Assembly (NCBI GenBank): GCA_943737045.1 | Contig: CALSFV010000355.1 | Coordinates: 62,001-126,000, forward strand | Direction: 5' to 3' | Source of the DNA: Parapristionchus giblindavisi | Taxonomy: Eukaryota; Nematoda; Chromadorea; Rhabditida; Diplogasteridae | Length of the DNA: 64,000 nt | Shown here: one piece after another, positions 3,711 through 63,826 of the stretch | Numbering within the stretch: position 1 is the stretch's first letter | Layout: the number at the start of each line of letters is the position of its first letter | Position numbers and translations under genes: made by a program | Notes under the pieces: model-generated | What the model was told of the DNA's origin: nothing | The model's database searches: none | What the model saw: only the letters and a program-made list of their open reading frames with translations

Positions 3711-4798
3711 TTGGCCATCTTCCAGCCACTGATCCTATTTTCTATTTGATTAGAACTATTCTGTAACATCTCTATGTCGATATTGTCTGACATTTTAATA
3801 TAGTAATATTGGCAATTTCGGGGATGAGAAATTGTAGGCATTGATTTTTTTAAAGTTATCGATTGTGAAGTGATTTTTTTGTGTGTTCAAAATGAATTAG
3901 CTAGAGGCTATTGATTAAAACTATACTATTGATACTATATTAATTGTTTTTCTCTACGTAGTCTGTAGTTTGTACCCTTACTTCTATGTATCCTAATATA
4001 GGTGCATATTGTGCGTACATAAACTTACCCTCTCACATGAGGCACACATTCCAAATTATATGATAATATAAGCAAAAGATTGCCTTATTTCATCAACTTC
4101 CCCGTTTAATACTTGTATTATTAGCCCAGTACCGTTACAAAATGATCATCGTATTATTGTTATTAATAATTGTAATTCGAAAATCTCGATACTAATCAAT
4201 AATGAACACCGGTACAAAGACTTACACTTGCATTTTATTTTTATTTTTTGTTCTCTAGACCCTCGAATATATTTTGATGTCTATAAATAGTTTGACCGTT
4301 TTATCGATTTGCTCGACATGAAACAGGGCATAGTATGGTATGATAGATTTAATAGTTATGAAAACTGTACAGCTTGAAGTATTATTCAATTTGATATGAA
4401 GAATAAGCAGAAGAGGTCTCACGTTTTCGAAGAATTTTGGAGGCCTTTCCGATAATTTAGTATCTGAAAACACAATATTGATAATAATTGTAACTAAATT
4501 TTCATGAGTGAAATTACTTCAGCACCTAGCAATAAATGAATTATAGAGAGTTTCCGGGGACAAATTCCCTAGATTAATATTTATCGTTTTTTCATTTGGT
4601 GTATTTCTATTTCTTGTTAACCATTTATCAGCTTTGTTTAATTTAAAAAGTTAGAAAAATCATTGAAATCAGCCTCCACTACGAACCAAATCATGCTAGC
4701 GCAACCATAAATCAACTAGTTTACCCCGATTAGTTGCTTTTGGGACACAACCCTTATTCAGTAGGCAGTGCTATCTAATGAGACTCATCATTTTATAA
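3711..4798 (+). other. 3' flank block shared by CCP copies
   Basis: AT-rich intergenic DNA, no convincing gene. It is repeated nearly unchanged after the last exon at 36840-37800, in diverged form after B (18550-19350) and C (30423-31223), inverted next to E (61880-62400, continuing at 58420-58466 beyond an insertion), and as an inverted fragment at 42755-42915. Short open frames inside it are not conserved in frame between copies. Confidence 0.75.
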
Positions 4799-45029: not shown

Positions 45030-46290
45030 TGTCTAATAAGCATATAAGAGGCCGTTTGTGTAAGAGTCGGACAAATCTGGGGGAGGGTTGGCACAGGCCA
45101 AAAAATTTAATACCCTCAAAACTTGTGTATAGGGGTTATCAACCTCGCTGATGAAGATGTGCATAATCATAACTCTGTGTTCAGTGTAGCTGCAGGCTAC
45201 AAACTTGGTAGAGATAATTGCCCATGAGTGATACAAAATCTGGCCGAGTATGAGACCGATTGGTTGAATTTTGAGAAATTTCGAAAATTTATTTTTCTCA
45301 TTTTTCGAGGTACAGTAAGTACCTGCTAAGGTTAATATCCATTCTGTTTAACAGCAATATGTCTTCTATACATAGTAGACGGCAGTGTACTATTGTTTCA
45401 TGAAATATCGAGTTCTTCAAGAGATGTTATAGTTGGAGAAATGAGGTCGAAAATTGTTTGGACACCAAAAAGACCAAAACCAAAAAGACCAAAAAAAATT
45501 AAATGATTTTTTGGCTAACTAAAAGAGCATCGATAGCCATTACACTGTTGGGTTAATCTTCCGTCTTCATGATAATTGTCGTGACAAGGTCTGAGCCTAA
45601 TCGGGCATATTCTGAGAATTTCGAAAATAATTTGGAAAAAATCCTAACAATTTTCGACCTCATTTCTCCAACTATAACATCTCTCGAAGAACTCGATATT
45701 TCATGAAACAATAGTACACTGCCGTCTACTATATCTAGAAGACATACTGCTGTTCAACAGAATGGATATTAACCTTAGCGGGTACTTACTGTACCTCGAA
45801 AAATGAGAAAAATAAATTTTCGAAATTTCTCAAAATTCAACCAATCGGTCTCATACTCGGCCAGATTTTGTATCACTCATGGGCAATTATCTCTACCAAG
45901 TTTGTAGCCTGCAGCTGCACTGAACACAGAGTTATGACGTTTTGGCCCAATTTCAGTGGTGTTGGAAATTTCGAATTTCTCACAGGAATGAATTAGCTCG
46001 AATAGATGGCATAGCGGATTTTACTTGGCAGTAAATGTTGTTCATACACTGTTAACAACAAGCTTCAGAAAAACCCAGCCGAGGAAATAATTTCTGCCGA
46101 GTATGTGTAGAGAGGTTCGAGGATCGCCACACAATAATACGACGACGAATCATAACAATGGGAGTAGGATATGATGCACGCTAGTACTATAGTATCATGA
46201 CAAAAGATGAGCCCGATTGCTCATCTGAGTCAAAAGTTATGACATTTCAAAGTTTCGTCCGAATACTTTTGGCCGCTACTGTATATAAAT
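45030..46290. mobile_element. transposon debris with 290-bp foldback and a Tc1-like end
   Basis: Arms 45168-45458 and 45646-45936 are inverted copies (TCGAAAATTGTT at the inner ends), the same family as the inner part of 58946-59850. At 46284-46253, read on the minus strand, is TACAGTAGCGGCCAAAAG, typical of a Tc1/mariner terminal repeat at a TA, lying in intron 4 of D1. The opposite end was not found. A segment shared with 55365-55490 lies at 45040-45160. No transposase gene. Confidence 0.6.
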
Positions 46291-56648: not shown

Positions 56649-57768
56649 TGCAAATTAGGCAATGAGGTACACTACCGTAATCGCTTCTCAACAGCTACCG
56701 TAATCTCGACTTTATCAGCATTACAGTAACTTGACTATTACACATTAGCTTAAAAAGTAACTAATAAAGATACATCCCAAGATAACAATACCACCAATAA
56801 TACTACGGTAACCCACCGTGATTATATCGCCTTCAGTAATCGATCACAAAAGTCTACCGTACCACTGCTCCTTCCACCTTCTGCAACCCTAAAAAATCTA
56901 GTATTTTCACTTAAACATTTATTTCGATGTTTTTTTCCAATTTTCAAATATATCAAAGATGGTTGACGCCAGACAAGAAATAGCAATGCAACAATGGAAA
57001 AATTTTTGCAGAAAACATTCATCTAGCGAATTTCACCCCATTGAATCTCTTCAAAGGAGAGTAATCTTACTCAACTAATTTGAAATCGCGGTCTCGTGCG
57101 GAAGAACTCCTACTGTACTTTCTAAGGACATACGAAAAAATACTTAAATTTAAAAAAAAATAGAAAATAGTTGTGTAAAACACAACATACATAGAAAATA
57201 CATCCCAAAAATATTTTTTTTCATAAGAAAACTGATAGAGCTGTAAGCGCATATTTCTTGTCAAATATCTCAAAACGGGAGTAGCCAAATTTTTTTCAAT
57301 ATCAATGATTAGCGTTGCCTCATACACAGTCCCTACATAGTCAGCTTGGTTGCCATGAGTCAGATTGTACGATCAACTTTCCAACAACTAATCATCTCAT
57401 TCTTTCAATCAGTTTAATTCTTAAAAAAACATTTTTGGGACGTAGTTTCTATTTTGCGATGATTAGTGTTGCGAAATCGAATATTTTAAACGAATATTTC
57501 TATAGACATTTGAGCGACCAAACACAAACTACAAGCCATATTTTTAACAATAAAAATTTGACAACAATAATTTGATTTTTTCAGATAGGTTATAATTAGA
57601 CCGCTCTCTTTTTCTCTCTCTATGTCTTTCAGCATAAATTGGAATATTCTTATTTGATTTCGCATTTCAATCATGAGAATTTTTGTGCAATAATTATAAG
57701 TATTGTGTTTTTAGATACTGCAACACTGTTAAATGAGCGGAAAGGCATACAGAAAACTCTACTGCTTA
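56649..57768. other. upstream region of D, no clear gene
   Basis: TTACGGTAG-type words to about 56830 and AT-rich DNA with runs of A and T at 56900-57600. A possible short exon (EGGRSSG after GCAG, minus strand, about 56885-56865) cannot be confirmed. Confidence 0.4.
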
Positions 57769-58380
57769 CATGGGAATGGTGTGAACTCACATTTCCCGAT
57801 TTTCACGAAAATTGCAGGGTTTACTAAATCGACTGCGCTGATTTCAAATCTGTTTTGAAAACCTGCAAAATGTTTTTCTGGAGCGAGTTATAGTCCGACG
57901 AAAATTATTTTTTTAATGTTTCAAATGAATGTTAAGCTGATTTCCTGTGCAATATGATCATAATCTTCTTTTTCCACTTCAAGCTGCATCGTGGTCAAGT
58001 CTTACGATGTTTGGTTGGTATTCCGGAGGGATCTTTTGTCATTTAAAAAAATTTTAACACCCATGAATCAGAAAAATAAGTTCACTGCCGAGGAATCGAA
58101 CCAGCCCCTTCCGGAATACCAGCAAAACATCATACCACCTTAAAATGCCGATTTGAGCGGGAATATAAGAGAAGAGAAGAGCAATAAAATTCACATCGAG
58201 TGGGGAAATCAGCTGAAAAATGGCTTGAAAAGTAATAAAAATCGATCTTTCCGGGCTATAACTCGCTTCAGAAAAACATTTCGCAGGTTTTTAATGCAGA
58301 TTTGGAATCAGCGTATTCGAGTTAGCATTCCCTGTAACTTCCGTGAAAATCGGGAAATGTGAGTTCGCACCATTCCCATG
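57769..58380. mobile_element. 612-bp foldback with TTA target duplication (PIF/Harbinger-like)
   Basis: Ends CATGGGAATGGTG and its complement, flanked on both sides by TTA (57766-57768 and 58381-58383). The arms extend well over 100 bp. The centre, read on the minus strand, holds a GGTTCGATTCC B-box-like word near 58100. No coding capacity. Confidence 0.8.
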
Positions 58381-58945
58381 TTAGTCTCCATATCAATTTC
58401 GTTGATGCAAAATACTTCAATCAAGATGTACATAGTGTTCATAATTATCGATTCTATCATACCATATACCACGGGTCTCCTGTAAAAGTGTAGCAAAAAC
58501 GGCCAGGCCTGCCACTAGGATTTTTTTTTGTCTTCGATTTCGATGAAAGTCGGTCAGCGTGTGTGGTTGGGGGCCATGAGAAGGCCTATCCACTTGATTT
58601 GGCCAAAATTCCAAATTATCGATTTTTTGTGATCTACCCTGAAAATGATCATAACTCGGTTCATTTTCATCGTAGAGCAATCTGACAGGTGTCATTCGAA
58701 CCGTATGGTAATGCTCTCAAAAAAAAGTTGTGAATGACCAGTTCGCTGCAAAGTCGTCTTCAGGGCGAAAAACGCGAAAAACACATTTTTTGAACAAACA
58801 AGTGACCTGTTCTCGAAAATTTTCTCTTGGGATCATCCGTATTATTGCAGAATATAAGTTATCAGATGACGTACAAAGTCGGTATGTTGTTCATTTGCCG
58901 TATCTCTGTCCCCTCAATACCGTTTTATAGAGTACACGGGACTTA

Positions 58946-59850
58946 CAAGGGAAGCACCAGTTGCGACGGAAACGATTCTTAAAGCGATCCATATGGGTCG
59001 TTAGGGTTGAGGGGGAGACCGCCAAAACTGTTTTCAAAAGTTGCCAAACTGTTCTGGTAATCGATATTTTCAATCAATATTTTCAACGCATGAGCGGATA
59101 AAATGCCATTACTATGTGTTCAATGAAGCTGCAGGTTTCAAACTCGGCAGAGTCAATACCCCCATGAGTGGTACAAATCCTGGTCTAGTATGAGCCCGAT
59201 CAGTTGAATTCTGGGAAATTTTAAAATTTTATTTTTTCTTATTTTGAGACGTACAGGCAGTTCCTTCTCAGGTTAATTTCGATTCAATTTAAAAGCCAGA
59301 TGTCTTCTATATATAGTAGACGACAATATACTAGAGTTTCATGAAATTTCGTGTTTTTCGGGAAAAGTTATAATTGAAGAAAGAAGGAAGAAACCATTTT
59401 CACGTTTTTTTTCGAAATTGTCTGAATTTGTCCAATTAGGCTTAGACTTTGCCACGACAATTATCTTGAAGACAAAAGATGATCCCTATAATAGAATAGC
59501 TATGGATGCTCTTTTAGTCCCACAGCAAATCATTTTACTTTTTTAGACTTTCTGCGAAAATCGTGTATGTTCAAAATTCCTCAAAATTCAACCGATCGGG
59601 CTCATTTTCTACCATGTTTTGGAATACTCGTGGGATATTATCTCTGCCAAGTTTGGAATCTGCAGCTTCATTGAACACAGAGTTATGGTATTTTAGCGGG
59701 GCATATTTTGAAAAAATATTGATTGAAAATATCGATTACCAGAACAGTTTGGCAACTTTTGCAAACAGTTTTGGCGGTCTCCCCTTCAACCCTGACGACC
59801 CATATGGGTCGTTTTCAGAATCGTTTCCGTCGCAACTGGTGCTTCCCTTG
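58946..59850. mobile_element. 905-bp nested foldback with TTA target duplication
   Basis: Ends CAAGGGAAGCACCAG and its complement, flanked by TTA (58943-58945 and 59851-59853). The opposite arm of the host element (near 61405) reads through without it and has a single TTA equivalent, so it is an exact empty site. Arms of at least 140 bp. The inner part is related to 45168-45936. TTA fits the TWA target of PIF/Harbinger elements. Confidence 0.85.
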
Positions 59851-60165
59851 TTAGCCATTTTTTTCGCCTCAACAGTTTTTCGATCGTATCTGCCTTCAAA
59901 GTGGTCCAATCGACTATCTTAAAAAAGGAAAATGATGCTCTCGGAAAGGCGAATAAAAAGTTCTTTAATAATTGAATAGCTATGACAACCCATTTTCGAG
60001 TTATTCGAGGAAAATCACTACACTTTCTCTATTTTCATCGATTCCAATGAATGAACGGAAAGGAAATTATTCTTTGTACAGCTAAAAACTACCCAATCGA
60101 CTTTATTTTATATTATACATGAAAAAATATTATAAAAGCAAGCAATCAATATGCAATTATCAACA

Positions 60166-61098
60166 TCACTGATCGAAAACGAGGGATGTGGACAAGTCAG
60201 GGGCCTCATCCGTGAACAAAGTGTTCATCTCGGTTTTCATCCAGTTGTAGATTGCATCGGAGGAGATAGTCAGATCATCCTCATGTACTTTCACTTCATC
60301 CTCAATTCCTCCTCCCTCCTCATCGTAGTCCTTCTCCCAGTTCTTGATGAAATCCATATCCAGTGCCACATCTCTCTTGGCTCTTGTGGCGCTTAGCTTC
60401 TTCTCTGTCTCCTCCTTCTTCTTCGCTAGCAGAGTCCGAATGCAGTTCTTGATCTGATCGTGTGACATTCGGTTAGCAGGCATGATATCCGTTCTGGCCT
60501 TCATTCTCCTCTCGACTTCTTCTGCTCTCAGCTTGTTCCTGGCTGCATAGAATTCCTCGAATTGATCGACCACCATCTGCTTGGCAACTGAGTCGTATGG
60601 GGTACTCTTCTTCCGAATGCGAAGTGCCCATCCTATGGGTGTCGGATGCTTCGGTGCCTTCTCGTATTCCTTGAATGATTCCGACAGTGGACCGATTCCG
60701 ACTCCTTGCTGAACCTCCTCGAGCATTCTCTTGTACAGTCCAAGGGCGAAATACATCATTGATACTCTCTCCGGTCTGATCTCGTGCTCTCCTCTGTCCC
60801 AGTGACGTTCAAGATTCCAATGACGGAGGAAAGTGGCAGAGCATTTGCTGCACACGAACAACGTGTTCTTGTCGGATGCAGAGGAGGGTGTAGGAGCGAT
60901 TCCAGTTACGACTTCATCATCCACATTATCGGGTTCTGGAGTGTCGACTTTATTCGTATGGAAGAACCAGTAGTGGGGTTCTTTTCCATCGGCGATCTTC
61001 TTCTCGTCATCCTCCTTCAGTCCATTTCTCACCAGCTTGCCTCCATGACTGTGCCATTGGATGGAACTGTCGATTCCCTTCAGTCCCCTCACTTTCAT
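60166..61098 (-). CDS. C2H2 zinc-finger/GWAL-domain protein of a mobile element, unknown function
   Basis: 310 residues from ATG at 61098-61096, no intron needed. Residues 1-50 include SIQWHSHGGKL and HYWFFH. A classical finger C83-x2-C86-x12-H99-x5-H105 ends in ERHWDRGEHE. A segment GWALRIRKKSTPY (156-168) is followed by a helical region with VVDQF (176-180), EEVERRMK (193-200) and MSHDQIKNCIRTLLAKKK (211-228), which could be a DNA-binding helix-turn-helix. The tail is acidic. The order finger, GWAL, ...QI..... matches an uncharacterised repetitive protein family that I recall from Hydra, coral and sponge genomes. It is the only gene between long TIRs, so it is a candidate mobility or cargo gene. 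No DDE triad or nuclease motif recognised. Confidence 0.75.
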   Translation of the reverse strand: MKVRGLKGIDSSIQWHSHGGKLVRNGLKEDDEKKIADGKEPHYWFFHTNKVDTPEPDNVDDEVVTGIAPTPSSASDKNTLFVCSKCSATFLRHWNLERHWDRGEHEIRPERVSMMYFALGLYKRMLEEVQQGVGIGPLSESFKEYEKAPKHPTPIGWALRIRKKSTPYDSVAKQMVVDQFEEFYAARNKLRAEEVERRMKARTDIMPANRMSHDQIKNCIRTLLAKKKEETEKKLSATRAKRDVALDMDFIKNWEKDYDEEGGGIEDEVKVHEDDLTISSDAIYNWMKTEMNTLFTDEAPDLSTSLVFDQ

Positions 61099-61871
61099 CC
61101 TCCAATTGGTGAGTCGGAAAGGAGAAGAAAAAAGGGAAAGGAGTGTGCATTAGTTGATCAGATCAGTAAATGAAATATGTAATTTCTGCAACAATTTTTC
61201 CATAACTGGCATGAAAAAGCCGACAAAATCGATGTTGATGAGGTTTTCCTCGAATAACTCGAAAATGGGTTGTCATGGCTATTCAATTATTAAAGAACTT
61301 TTTATTCGCCTTTCCGAGAGCATCATTTTCCTTTTTTAAGATTGTCGATTGGACCACTTAGAAGGCAGATACGATCGAAAAACTGTTGAGGCGAAAAAAA
61401 TGGCTAAGTCCCGTGTACTCTATAAAACGGTATTGAGGGGACAGAGATACGGCAAATGAACAACATACCGACTTTGTACGTCATCTGTCAACTTATATTC
61501 TGCAATAATACGGATGATCCCAAGAGAAAATTTTCGAGAACAGGTCACTTGTTTGTTTAAAAAATGTGATTTTCGCGTTTTTCGCCCTGAAGACGACTTT
61601 GCAGCGAACGGGTCATTCACAACTTTTTTTGAGAGCATTACCATACGGTTCGAATGACACCTGTCAGATTGCTCTACGATGAAAATGAACCGAGTTATGA
61701 TCATTTTCAGGGTAGATCACAAAAAATCGATAATTTGGAATTTTGGCCAAATCAAGTGGATAGGCCTTCTCATGGCCCCCAACCACACACGCTGACCGAC
61801 TTTCATCGAAATCGAAGACAAAAAAAAATCCTAGTGGCAGGCGTTTCTACACTTTTACAGAAGACCCGTGA

Positions 61872-62489
61872 TACTATGTCATGTTTCATGTCGAGCAAAT
61901 CGATAAAATACGACGAAACTATTTATAGACATAAAAATATATTCGAGGGTCCTGAGAACAAAAAAATAAAAATAAAATGCAAGTGTAAGTCTGTGTACCG
62001 GTGTGTTCATTTTTTGATTAGTATCGAGATTTTCGAATTACAATTATTAATAACAATAATACGATGATCATTTTGTAACGGTACTGGGCTAATAATACAA
62101 GTATTAAACGGGAAGTTGAAGAAATAAGGCAATCTTTTGCTTATATTATCATATAATTTGGAATGTGTGCCTCATGTGAGAGGGTAAGTTTATGGACGCA
62201 CAATATACACCTATATTAGGATACATGGAAGTAAGGGTACAAACTACAAACTACGTGTGGAGAAAACAGTTAATATAGTATCGTATTAATCAATAGCATC
62301 TAGATAATCCATTTTTAAAACACAAAAAAATCAATTCACAATCGATAATTTTCAAAAAAAATCAATGCCTACAATTTCAAATCCTCGAAATTGTCAATAT
62401 TACTATGTTAAAATGTCATACAATATCAACACACATATGTTACAGAATAGTTCTAATCAAATAGGAAATAGTGGACAGTATGGTGGAGT
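61872..62489 (-). other. 3' flank block of copy E
   Basis: Reverse complement of the block that follows copy A. It continues across the 3.4-kb insertion at 58420-58466. No gene seen. Confidence 0.75.
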
Positions 62490-62504
62490 GGATCAATGGC
62501 CAGC

Positions 62505-62668
62505 CGATGGCCAAGTCATCGTTCAATGGCTGGCCACTCTCTATCGTTCAATGGCTGGCCACTCTCTATCGTTCAATGGCTGGCCACTCTCTATCGTTCA
62601 ATGGCTGGCCACTCTCTATCGTTCAATGGCTGGCCACTCTTTATCGTTCAATGGCTGGCCACTCTCTA
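62505..62668 (-). repeat. 25-bp terminal minisatellite, copy E (about 6 units)
   Basis: Same unit and position as in the other copies, starting at the stop codon (CTA at 62666-62668). The + frames over it are artefacts. Confidence 0.9.
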
Positions 62669-63826
62669 TCGATCACTGCCACCATTTCGTCGATCTCGCT
62701 GGGATCGTGCAAGAGCGAGTGCCGCCTGTACCAGGTTACGACCAATCTCCTTCAGTTCACTGATACCAATCTGTAAAGGACAATGATCACTTCGTAGTCC
62801 TTCAGATACCGTAATCCCACCCTTTTACCCTTTAGCCTTTACCGTAACCCCACCCCAGAATACTCTTCAAATCTTTATAAATTTGTCACTCATAGTCCTT
62901 CTCTACAAGTTATTGACCGTGTTCAAGAGATCCGTCACTCAAGTCAACGGAATATTCATCGTGCTATACTAAATTACACCTACCACAATCATGTTTTAAA
63001 CACATGCTATCTACTTAGCATCGACAGCGTTCACAATACACATCTATCTACCCTGTCATACCATATTCCCCGTCCACACCTGATATCCCTTATAGGGTCC
63101 GGACTCGTATCCGGCGTACGTGCACTCCATCGTGTAGGCGCGGGGCAGGGACAGTTGGCGCCAGAGTGCCACACGCGCCGAACCCTCCTTCGATCGTTGA
63201 ATCGACCAACGACAATTCCTGAAAACGGACAAGAGATTATACGCAAGCCAACGCCCTCTTTAAAGGCGCCCCAAGCTAATTTTACTCTCCGCATTGGTAA
63301 TACTCTCTCGTAGGCAGAGAAAGCGAGAGAGTGTGGCCAGAGCGGAAAGTTTCGAATTAGCTTGGGGTTATGCCTCTAACCACCTCACCCCTCTGTGGTT
63401 CGCATTTTTATGATGGAAATCTTTACAATAAGTAGTTAAACTATTGGCCCAACAACGATAATTTAGTACGTCAAAGATCAAAGATCAAATCATACTTGGC
63501 TGAGAACGACGGCGCCATAGTCTCCAACAATTCAGCCATGTCAATGAAATCGAGATTAGGCGAGTGCAACACATCGGGAGGATGCCAGGACTGAAAAGTT
63601 ATTAATCTTTGATCATTTACAAAGTTGATCTTTGATCTTTAGGAAAGCTAATTTTTGATATTTTACAAAGTTGAACTTTGATCTTTTTAGAAAGTTGATC
63701 TTTGATCATTTACAAAGTTGATCTTTGATCTCCAACCTGATCAGGATTGTTTCCATACAAGAAACAGTTTGACCTTCGCGAATGTCCATGTAGATCAACG
63801 AACAGAAGCGGTAGACGATATTCGGA
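62666..63826 (-). CDS. cytosolic carboxypeptidase copy E, 3' part (continues beyond the window)
   Basis: Four exons read right to left: 63826-63737 (DLHGHS with the third zinc ligand), 63590-63496 (SWHPPDVLHSPNL), 63218-63080 (RSKEGSARV, catalytic Glu in YTME) and 62770-62666 (GISELKEIGR, TAG). Lengths of 90, 95, 139 and 105 nt equal those of copy A, all acceptors end in AG and all donors are GT. No stop or frameshift is visible, so E may be an intact second gene; exons with HPGE and DLNR lie past 64000. A MITE sits in the intron before the YTME exon. Confidence 0.8.
63269..63367. mobile_element. 99-bp MITE (CCCCAAGCTAA ends) in intron 11 of E
   Basis: CCCCAAGCTAATTTTACT...TTAGCTTGGGG, the best-preserved copy of this family in the window. 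Copy A is the empty site (GAGGCACTTTAAAGAGG near 3135-3151). Confidence 0.8.

Follow-up and report, generated by a model that had tools for sequence, protein, structure and literature searches.

How does an element with long inverted repeats, a single intact gene and seemingly no transposase come to move? The question is raised by a 64,000-nucleotide stretch of the nematode Parapristionchus giblindavisi (contig CALSFV010000355.1, positions 62,001 to 126,000), here called the window and numbered from its first letter. A preliminary description had placed such an element at 58467..61871, between terminal inverted repeats (TIRs), with a 310-codon gene that carries a zinc finger and a GWAL motif and that could be either the element's own mobility factor or cargo. 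We conclude, with a probability of about 0.9, that the window element is an internally deleted, non-autonomous copy of a DNA transposon of the cut-and-paste kind with one multi-exon transposase. This follows from a full-length copy in the same genome, on contig C205, which has the same TIRs and the same gene, whereas the predicted catalytic core is deleted in the window copy.

The element spans 58470-61870 (3401 bp), reads CACGGGTCT...AGACCCGTG from end to end with termini that start 5'-CACGGGTCT, and is flanked by ATAC on both sides (58466..58469 and 61871..61874, neither with a strand). Its left TIR, 637 bp without a nested insertion, consists of an outer part (58470..58945, plus strand) and an inner part (59851..60014, plus strand), and the right TIR of 627 bp lies at 61244..61870 on the minus strand. 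The two arms are 98.2% identical without gaps. The long TIRs and the interruption of the left one therefore stand as first described, while the limits and the 640-bp length given for the right arm are corrected here. A genome-wide search, which the preliminary description had proposed, found the TIR sequence at 20 other loci of the same genome, so that the repeats are far beyond chance; genome copy numbers given here are lower bounds. An exact 4-bp target-site duplication (ATAT, ATAA, TTAT, TTAA, ATAG or ATAC) was present in 16 of the 17 genome copies having both ends, a count that leaves out four of the 21 copies (L017, L021, L024 and L026) with an end missing or outside the stretch. The fourth base of the duplication varies among copies and agrees within each of the 16, and the duplication is therefore 4 bp around TA; the TA first noted on either side of the element is merely its middle. 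The ends of L021/L031 (contig C246), read by eye, have ATAT on both sides. A duplication of fixed length and TIRs common to many copies, two of the general marks of DDD/E cut-and-paste elements, are both found. Relatives of the flank without the element support insertion, though they are not perfect empty sites. Empty sites were sought within the window, where four paralogous flanks lack the element (4406-4038, that is 4038..4406 on the minus strand; 37445-37084; 19076-18762; 30949-30635). At the insertion site two of them read ACCATAC and two ATCATGC, and the joined flank reads ACCATATAC.

The full-length element on contig C205 (1885879-1892162, 6284 bp, TTAT duplication) holds a gene modelled as 11 exons with GT-AG introns, which would encode 1108 residues without a stop. 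The open reading frame (ORF) of the window (60166..61098, minus strand) matches residues 799-1108 of this protein, in the last exon, and its start codon falls on a methionine inside the longer protein. On this match, the 310-codon gene is the C-terminal end of the element's own putative transposase. It includes the C2H2 finger C-x2-C-x12-H-x5-H (ORF residues 83-105; 60784..60852, minus strand), read from the sequence and with weak Pfam C2H2 matches, and the GWAL motif (ORF residues 156-159; 60622..60633, minus strand). The nearest relatives, P0001 (425 residues) and P0002 (457 residues, Pristionchus pacificus), also extend upstream of it with SFSEAQSGKSS.DRYAA, and the extension of P0002 has TDNAGYYHSA as well. 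Pristionchus pacificus and P. entomophagus supply the nearest relatives that bear a species name. Exons 1-10 are missing from the window copy, in which an internal deletion has fused a 5' non-coding remnant (61099..61243, minus strand) to the last exon near 61099-61104; compared with C205, about 3.8 kb is gone. The ORF is therefore intact, as first described, but it represents no more than the 3' end of a longer gene, and the reported lack of a recognisable transposase gives way to the C-terminal end of one. That full-length relatives might encode a transposase had been foreseen as evidence against the original reading; one is indeed present, but it is the same gene in full and not a different one. 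The gene belongs to the mobility machinery, as one of the two original alternatives held. The other, a separate cargo gene, is rejected since the window ORF corresponds to residues 799-1108 of the C205 protein and the full-length element contains the same gene entire.

Structure models predict that a core of RNase H type, with three aspartates as its D-D-D triad, lies in the part deleted from the window copy, which is where the hidden RNase H fold suspected in the preliminary description would lie. A core inside the 310 residues was considered and rejected, as the first residue kept in the window copy comes 84 residues after the third aspartate of the core. The C205 model has, in order, an N-terminal region, a Cys/His-rich region, the RNase H-like core, the C2H2 finger and the GWAL helical tail; only the structure model of the Oculina protein P0104 includes the finger and tail, and a second one covers the core. 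The putative catalytic aspartates of C205 are D593, D674 and D715, and the three positions are conserved in 64 of 64, 67 of 67 and 65 of 67 rows of the core alignment. The core is compact, without an insertion domain. The fold with its three catalytic residues, in a full-length copy a third general mark of DDD/E elements, is a prediction from models. Tc1/mariner was the nearest solved transposase fold, and a viral structure library gave a mixture of RNase H-like, terminase and other matches, three of them at E <= 0.001. Transib, RAG1, Academ and Sola were not among the structure matches listed, which excludes none of them. Sequence profiles searched against the PDB returned zinc fingers for the finger region and one RNA-editing protein at E 0.93.

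Relatives of this protein are widespread in animals. With the Mytilus core (residues 8-235 of P0021) as query, 273 of 532 candidate proteins matched at E <= 0.001, and taxa and names are given here for the 120 of the 273 that were listed. These include bivalves (Mytilus, Saccostrea, Crassostrea, Magallana and Ostrea), cnidarians (Porites, Montipora, Oculina, Paramuricea and Actinostola, among which are corals, an anemone and a gorgonian), the amphioxus Branchiostoma, the ribbon worm Lineus and many more. The family had been described as abundant in cnidarians and sponges; cnidarians are common, but no sponge is named among the 120. Most named relatives are labelled uncharacterized, hypothetical or C2H2-type, while P0060 bears the retrotransposon name Transposon Tf2-6. 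The C205 protein is 28.6% identical to P0104 over 753 residues, and the whole architecture is common to the relatives. Alignments comprised 21 of the 142 proteins from three protein searches (A1), 81 proteins plus the window protein (A2) and 67 proteins (A3). No RNase H or transposase Pfam family was listed for the window protein, three Pristionchus proteins and nine long relatives at E <= 0.5, nor for 67 members at E <= 0.05 among 25 of 30 families. The strongest Pfam matches of these 67 came from scattered zinc fingers and from an F5/8 domain, which P0021 has as a fusion. No support emerged for a prokaryotic or viral origin: one pattern scan each of viral contigs (17 stretches matched) and genome contigs (15 matched) confirmed no relative.

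Eight predicted proteins of P. pacificus (P0010, P0012, P0013, P0014, P0015, P0017, P0019 and P0020) contain pieces of the transposase, under names such as eya-1, ddx-19, snx-1, P450, glycosyltransferase and G protein-coupled receptors; this would be gene-model fusion or exonisation. P0018, a finger-GWAL protein of Pristionchus entomophagus, is far more diverged (33% identical to P0002 over 68%) and is perhaps a second lineage of the transposon in the genus.

To which superfamily the transposon belongs was considered against published descriptions. Tc1/mariner elements (Mos1 and the SETMAR transposase domain) have a 2-bp TA duplication where ours has 4 bp. In our element, moreover, the core is about twice as far from the N-terminus, the TIRs are long, a C-terminal finger and GWAL tail are present, and there is no Pfam match. 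The EnSpm/CACTA-Mirage-Chapaev-Transib group (CMC/CMCT) is described with 5'-CAC...GTG-3' termini and a duplication of 2-5 bp (PMC4079192; PMC12730594), which our termini and 4-bp duplication fit, but our core is compact and without an insertion domain. If the helix aspartate is taken as the last catalytic residue, the paired CMC signature between the second and third aspartates is absent: of the 67 rows, 20 have C(2)C and 1 has H(3-4)H. Zisupton/KDZ, a DNA transposon with a multi-exon gene, is reported from the same nematode group, in P. pacificus (PMC9297572). It fits neither by domain nor by duplication: the KDZ domain PF18758 was not listed for the window protein, the three Pristionchus proteins and the nine long relatives, nor among 25 of 30 Pfam families for the 67 members, and the duplication is 8 bp in Zisupton and 7 bp in Kyakuja (PMC12730594) against 4 bp here. 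The TTAA-specific duplication of piggyBac and Kolobok (for Kolobok, PMC9587614) is also at odds with our copies, where TTAA is 1 of the 16 exact duplications. Retroviral integrases (RSV, FIV and HIV) share the fold alone; the third acid here is D and not E, and ours is a DNA transposon with TIRs. The element is thus a DDD cut-and-paste transposon to which no superfamily is assigned, because the signatures of CMC, Zisupton and Tc1/mariner are not present and Academ and Sola were set against it by description only.

We consider the chances about even that the family falls within a superfamily described before, Academ (AcademX) or Sola being the likeliest, and that only the species is new. Sola1 and Sola2 have 4-bp duplications, as does our element. 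AcademX is the strongest named candidate, again by description: its duplications are of 3 or 4 bp (PMC10045372), and Academ is reported as abundant in bivalves; among the molluscs studied it was confined to them, ranked third in ORFs after TcMar and hAT and had a mean length of 5565 bp (PMC10294476), to be compared with the many bivalve members found here and the 6284 bp of C205. P0126, 1 of the 120 relatives listed, has a helicase C domain (PF00271). A helicase is encoded by AcademH as well, but AcademH duplications are of 9 or 10 bp (PMC10045372). Academ lineages are further described as encoding a nuclease or helicase (PMC10045372), whereas we found neither as a second gene in C205. Outside the transposase exons there is no other ORF of more than 189 codons, and none of five C205 ORFs, of which two lie outside the exons, matched a nuclease or helicase, although a multi-exon or diverged nuclease could escape this. 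Neither domain appeared among 25 of 30 Pfam families for the 67 members. A more tentative proposal, to which we give somewhat less credence, is that the finger-GWAL proteins of corals, bivalves, amphioxus, ribbon worm and Pristionchus are transposases of one widespread superfamily of animal DNA transposons without a name of its own. Its marks would be the compact D-x(82-88)-D-x(40)-D core and a C-terminus with C2H2 finger and GWAL tail, to which this nematode at least adds CAC...GTG termini and a TA-centred 4-bp duplication. No description of the family as a transposon was found in titles and the starts of abstracts, with Repbase outside the search.

Could the 310-residue protein instead be a selected factor in itself, such as a repressor or helper that deletion derivatives produce, for which KP is the P-element counterpart? 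The frame is fully open in the window, L009 and L011 as well as in C205, and some C-terminal gene sequence is kept, at least in part, in 21 of 21 copies. This retention may however reflect the query, because it carried that part, and many other copies have gaps or stops there. Only C205 spans residues 1-1108; D593 and D674 occur in C205 and L010 only and D715 in 7 of 21 copies, so that the triad is complete in 2 of 21. Among the window copy, L009, L010 and L011, the ratio of nonsynonymous to synonymous substitution rates (dN/dS) was 0.91-1.64 in five pairs, with 5 to 13 changes per pair, and the sixth pair had no synonymous change. Each of these four gave 0.20-0.27 against C205, in a table of five rows that includes L010 with its 2-base gap in the region. 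On these ratios selection is visible on the full-length lineage and not on the truncated ORF. Together with the start codon at an internal methionine, the values near 1 make a selected factor improbable. Least credible of all is a captured host gene or cargo, which the prediction of finger and GWAL proteins in many animals might suggest but which the entire same gene with its RNase H-like core in the full-length element, and the architecture common to relatives, speak against. In seven copies (L013, L015, L019, L022, L023, L024 and L025) the 3' end of the gene is present twice, inverted and adjoining both TIRs, which gives the impression that the inverted repeat has extended inwards.

Several points weigh against the interpretation as an internal-deletion copy of a cut-and-paste transposon. 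L015, the sole exception among the 17 copies, has no matching duplications; identical sequence is mirrored on both of its sides, and this copy seems to be part of a larger palindrome. A perfect empty site with a duplication of 4 bp would be 2 bp longer than the paralogous flanks, and the empty site first described holds to that extent only. The first exon of the C205 model, whose splicing was modelled from sequence alone, is a choice, and one alternative first-exon splice gave stops in frame. In Foldseek searches the long model had no PDB match at E <= 0.001 and the core had a single one, to a viral terminase nuclease. There is a bias in the list of copies, the query having contained the C-terminal part and only 40 of 2315 candidates having been scored, and the dN/dS values of truncated copies rest on the few changes given above.

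If the element is such a deletion copy, the transposase would bind the TIRs and excise the element by DDD two-metal chemistry, with insertion at TA-centred cuts staggered by 4 bp. The finger and tail may contact DNA or a partner subunit, and the transposase would presumably dimerise and be active. The window copy would be mobile only with transposase supplied in trans, and its 310-residue ORF would be a by-product of the deletion.

The left TIR is interrupted by a nested 905-bp TIR element (CAAGGGAAGC...GCTTCCCTTG; 58946..59850, no strand) with TIRs of its own of about 280 bp and a TTA duplication (58943-58945 and 59851-59853). Of 12 further copies, 10 have an exact 3-bp TNA duplication (TAA or TCA); L039 pairs TCA with TTA, and for L040 no ends were located. 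A G stands directly to the right of the duplication in the 11 readable further copies. A partial, diverged relative, 76-81% identical, lies at 45168-45943. Close to the left end of the larger element, on its outer side, is a 181-bp inverted repeat (57765-57945 / 58204-58384; 81% complementary), and a short tandem repeat with a unit of about 27 bp (CAATGGCTGGCCACTCTCTATCGTT...) was read by eye at about 62500-62670.

The suggestion that the whole family belongs to a mobile system is very probably correct, and many animal proteins labelled uncharacterized or C2H2-type domain-containing are very probably transposase. This bears on gene counts and on claimed gene-family expansions in corals and bivalves. 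With one exact-ended element that has an apparently complete gene, plus deletion derivatives, in a single genome, the activity, target choice and superfamily placement of this transposon are directly testable.
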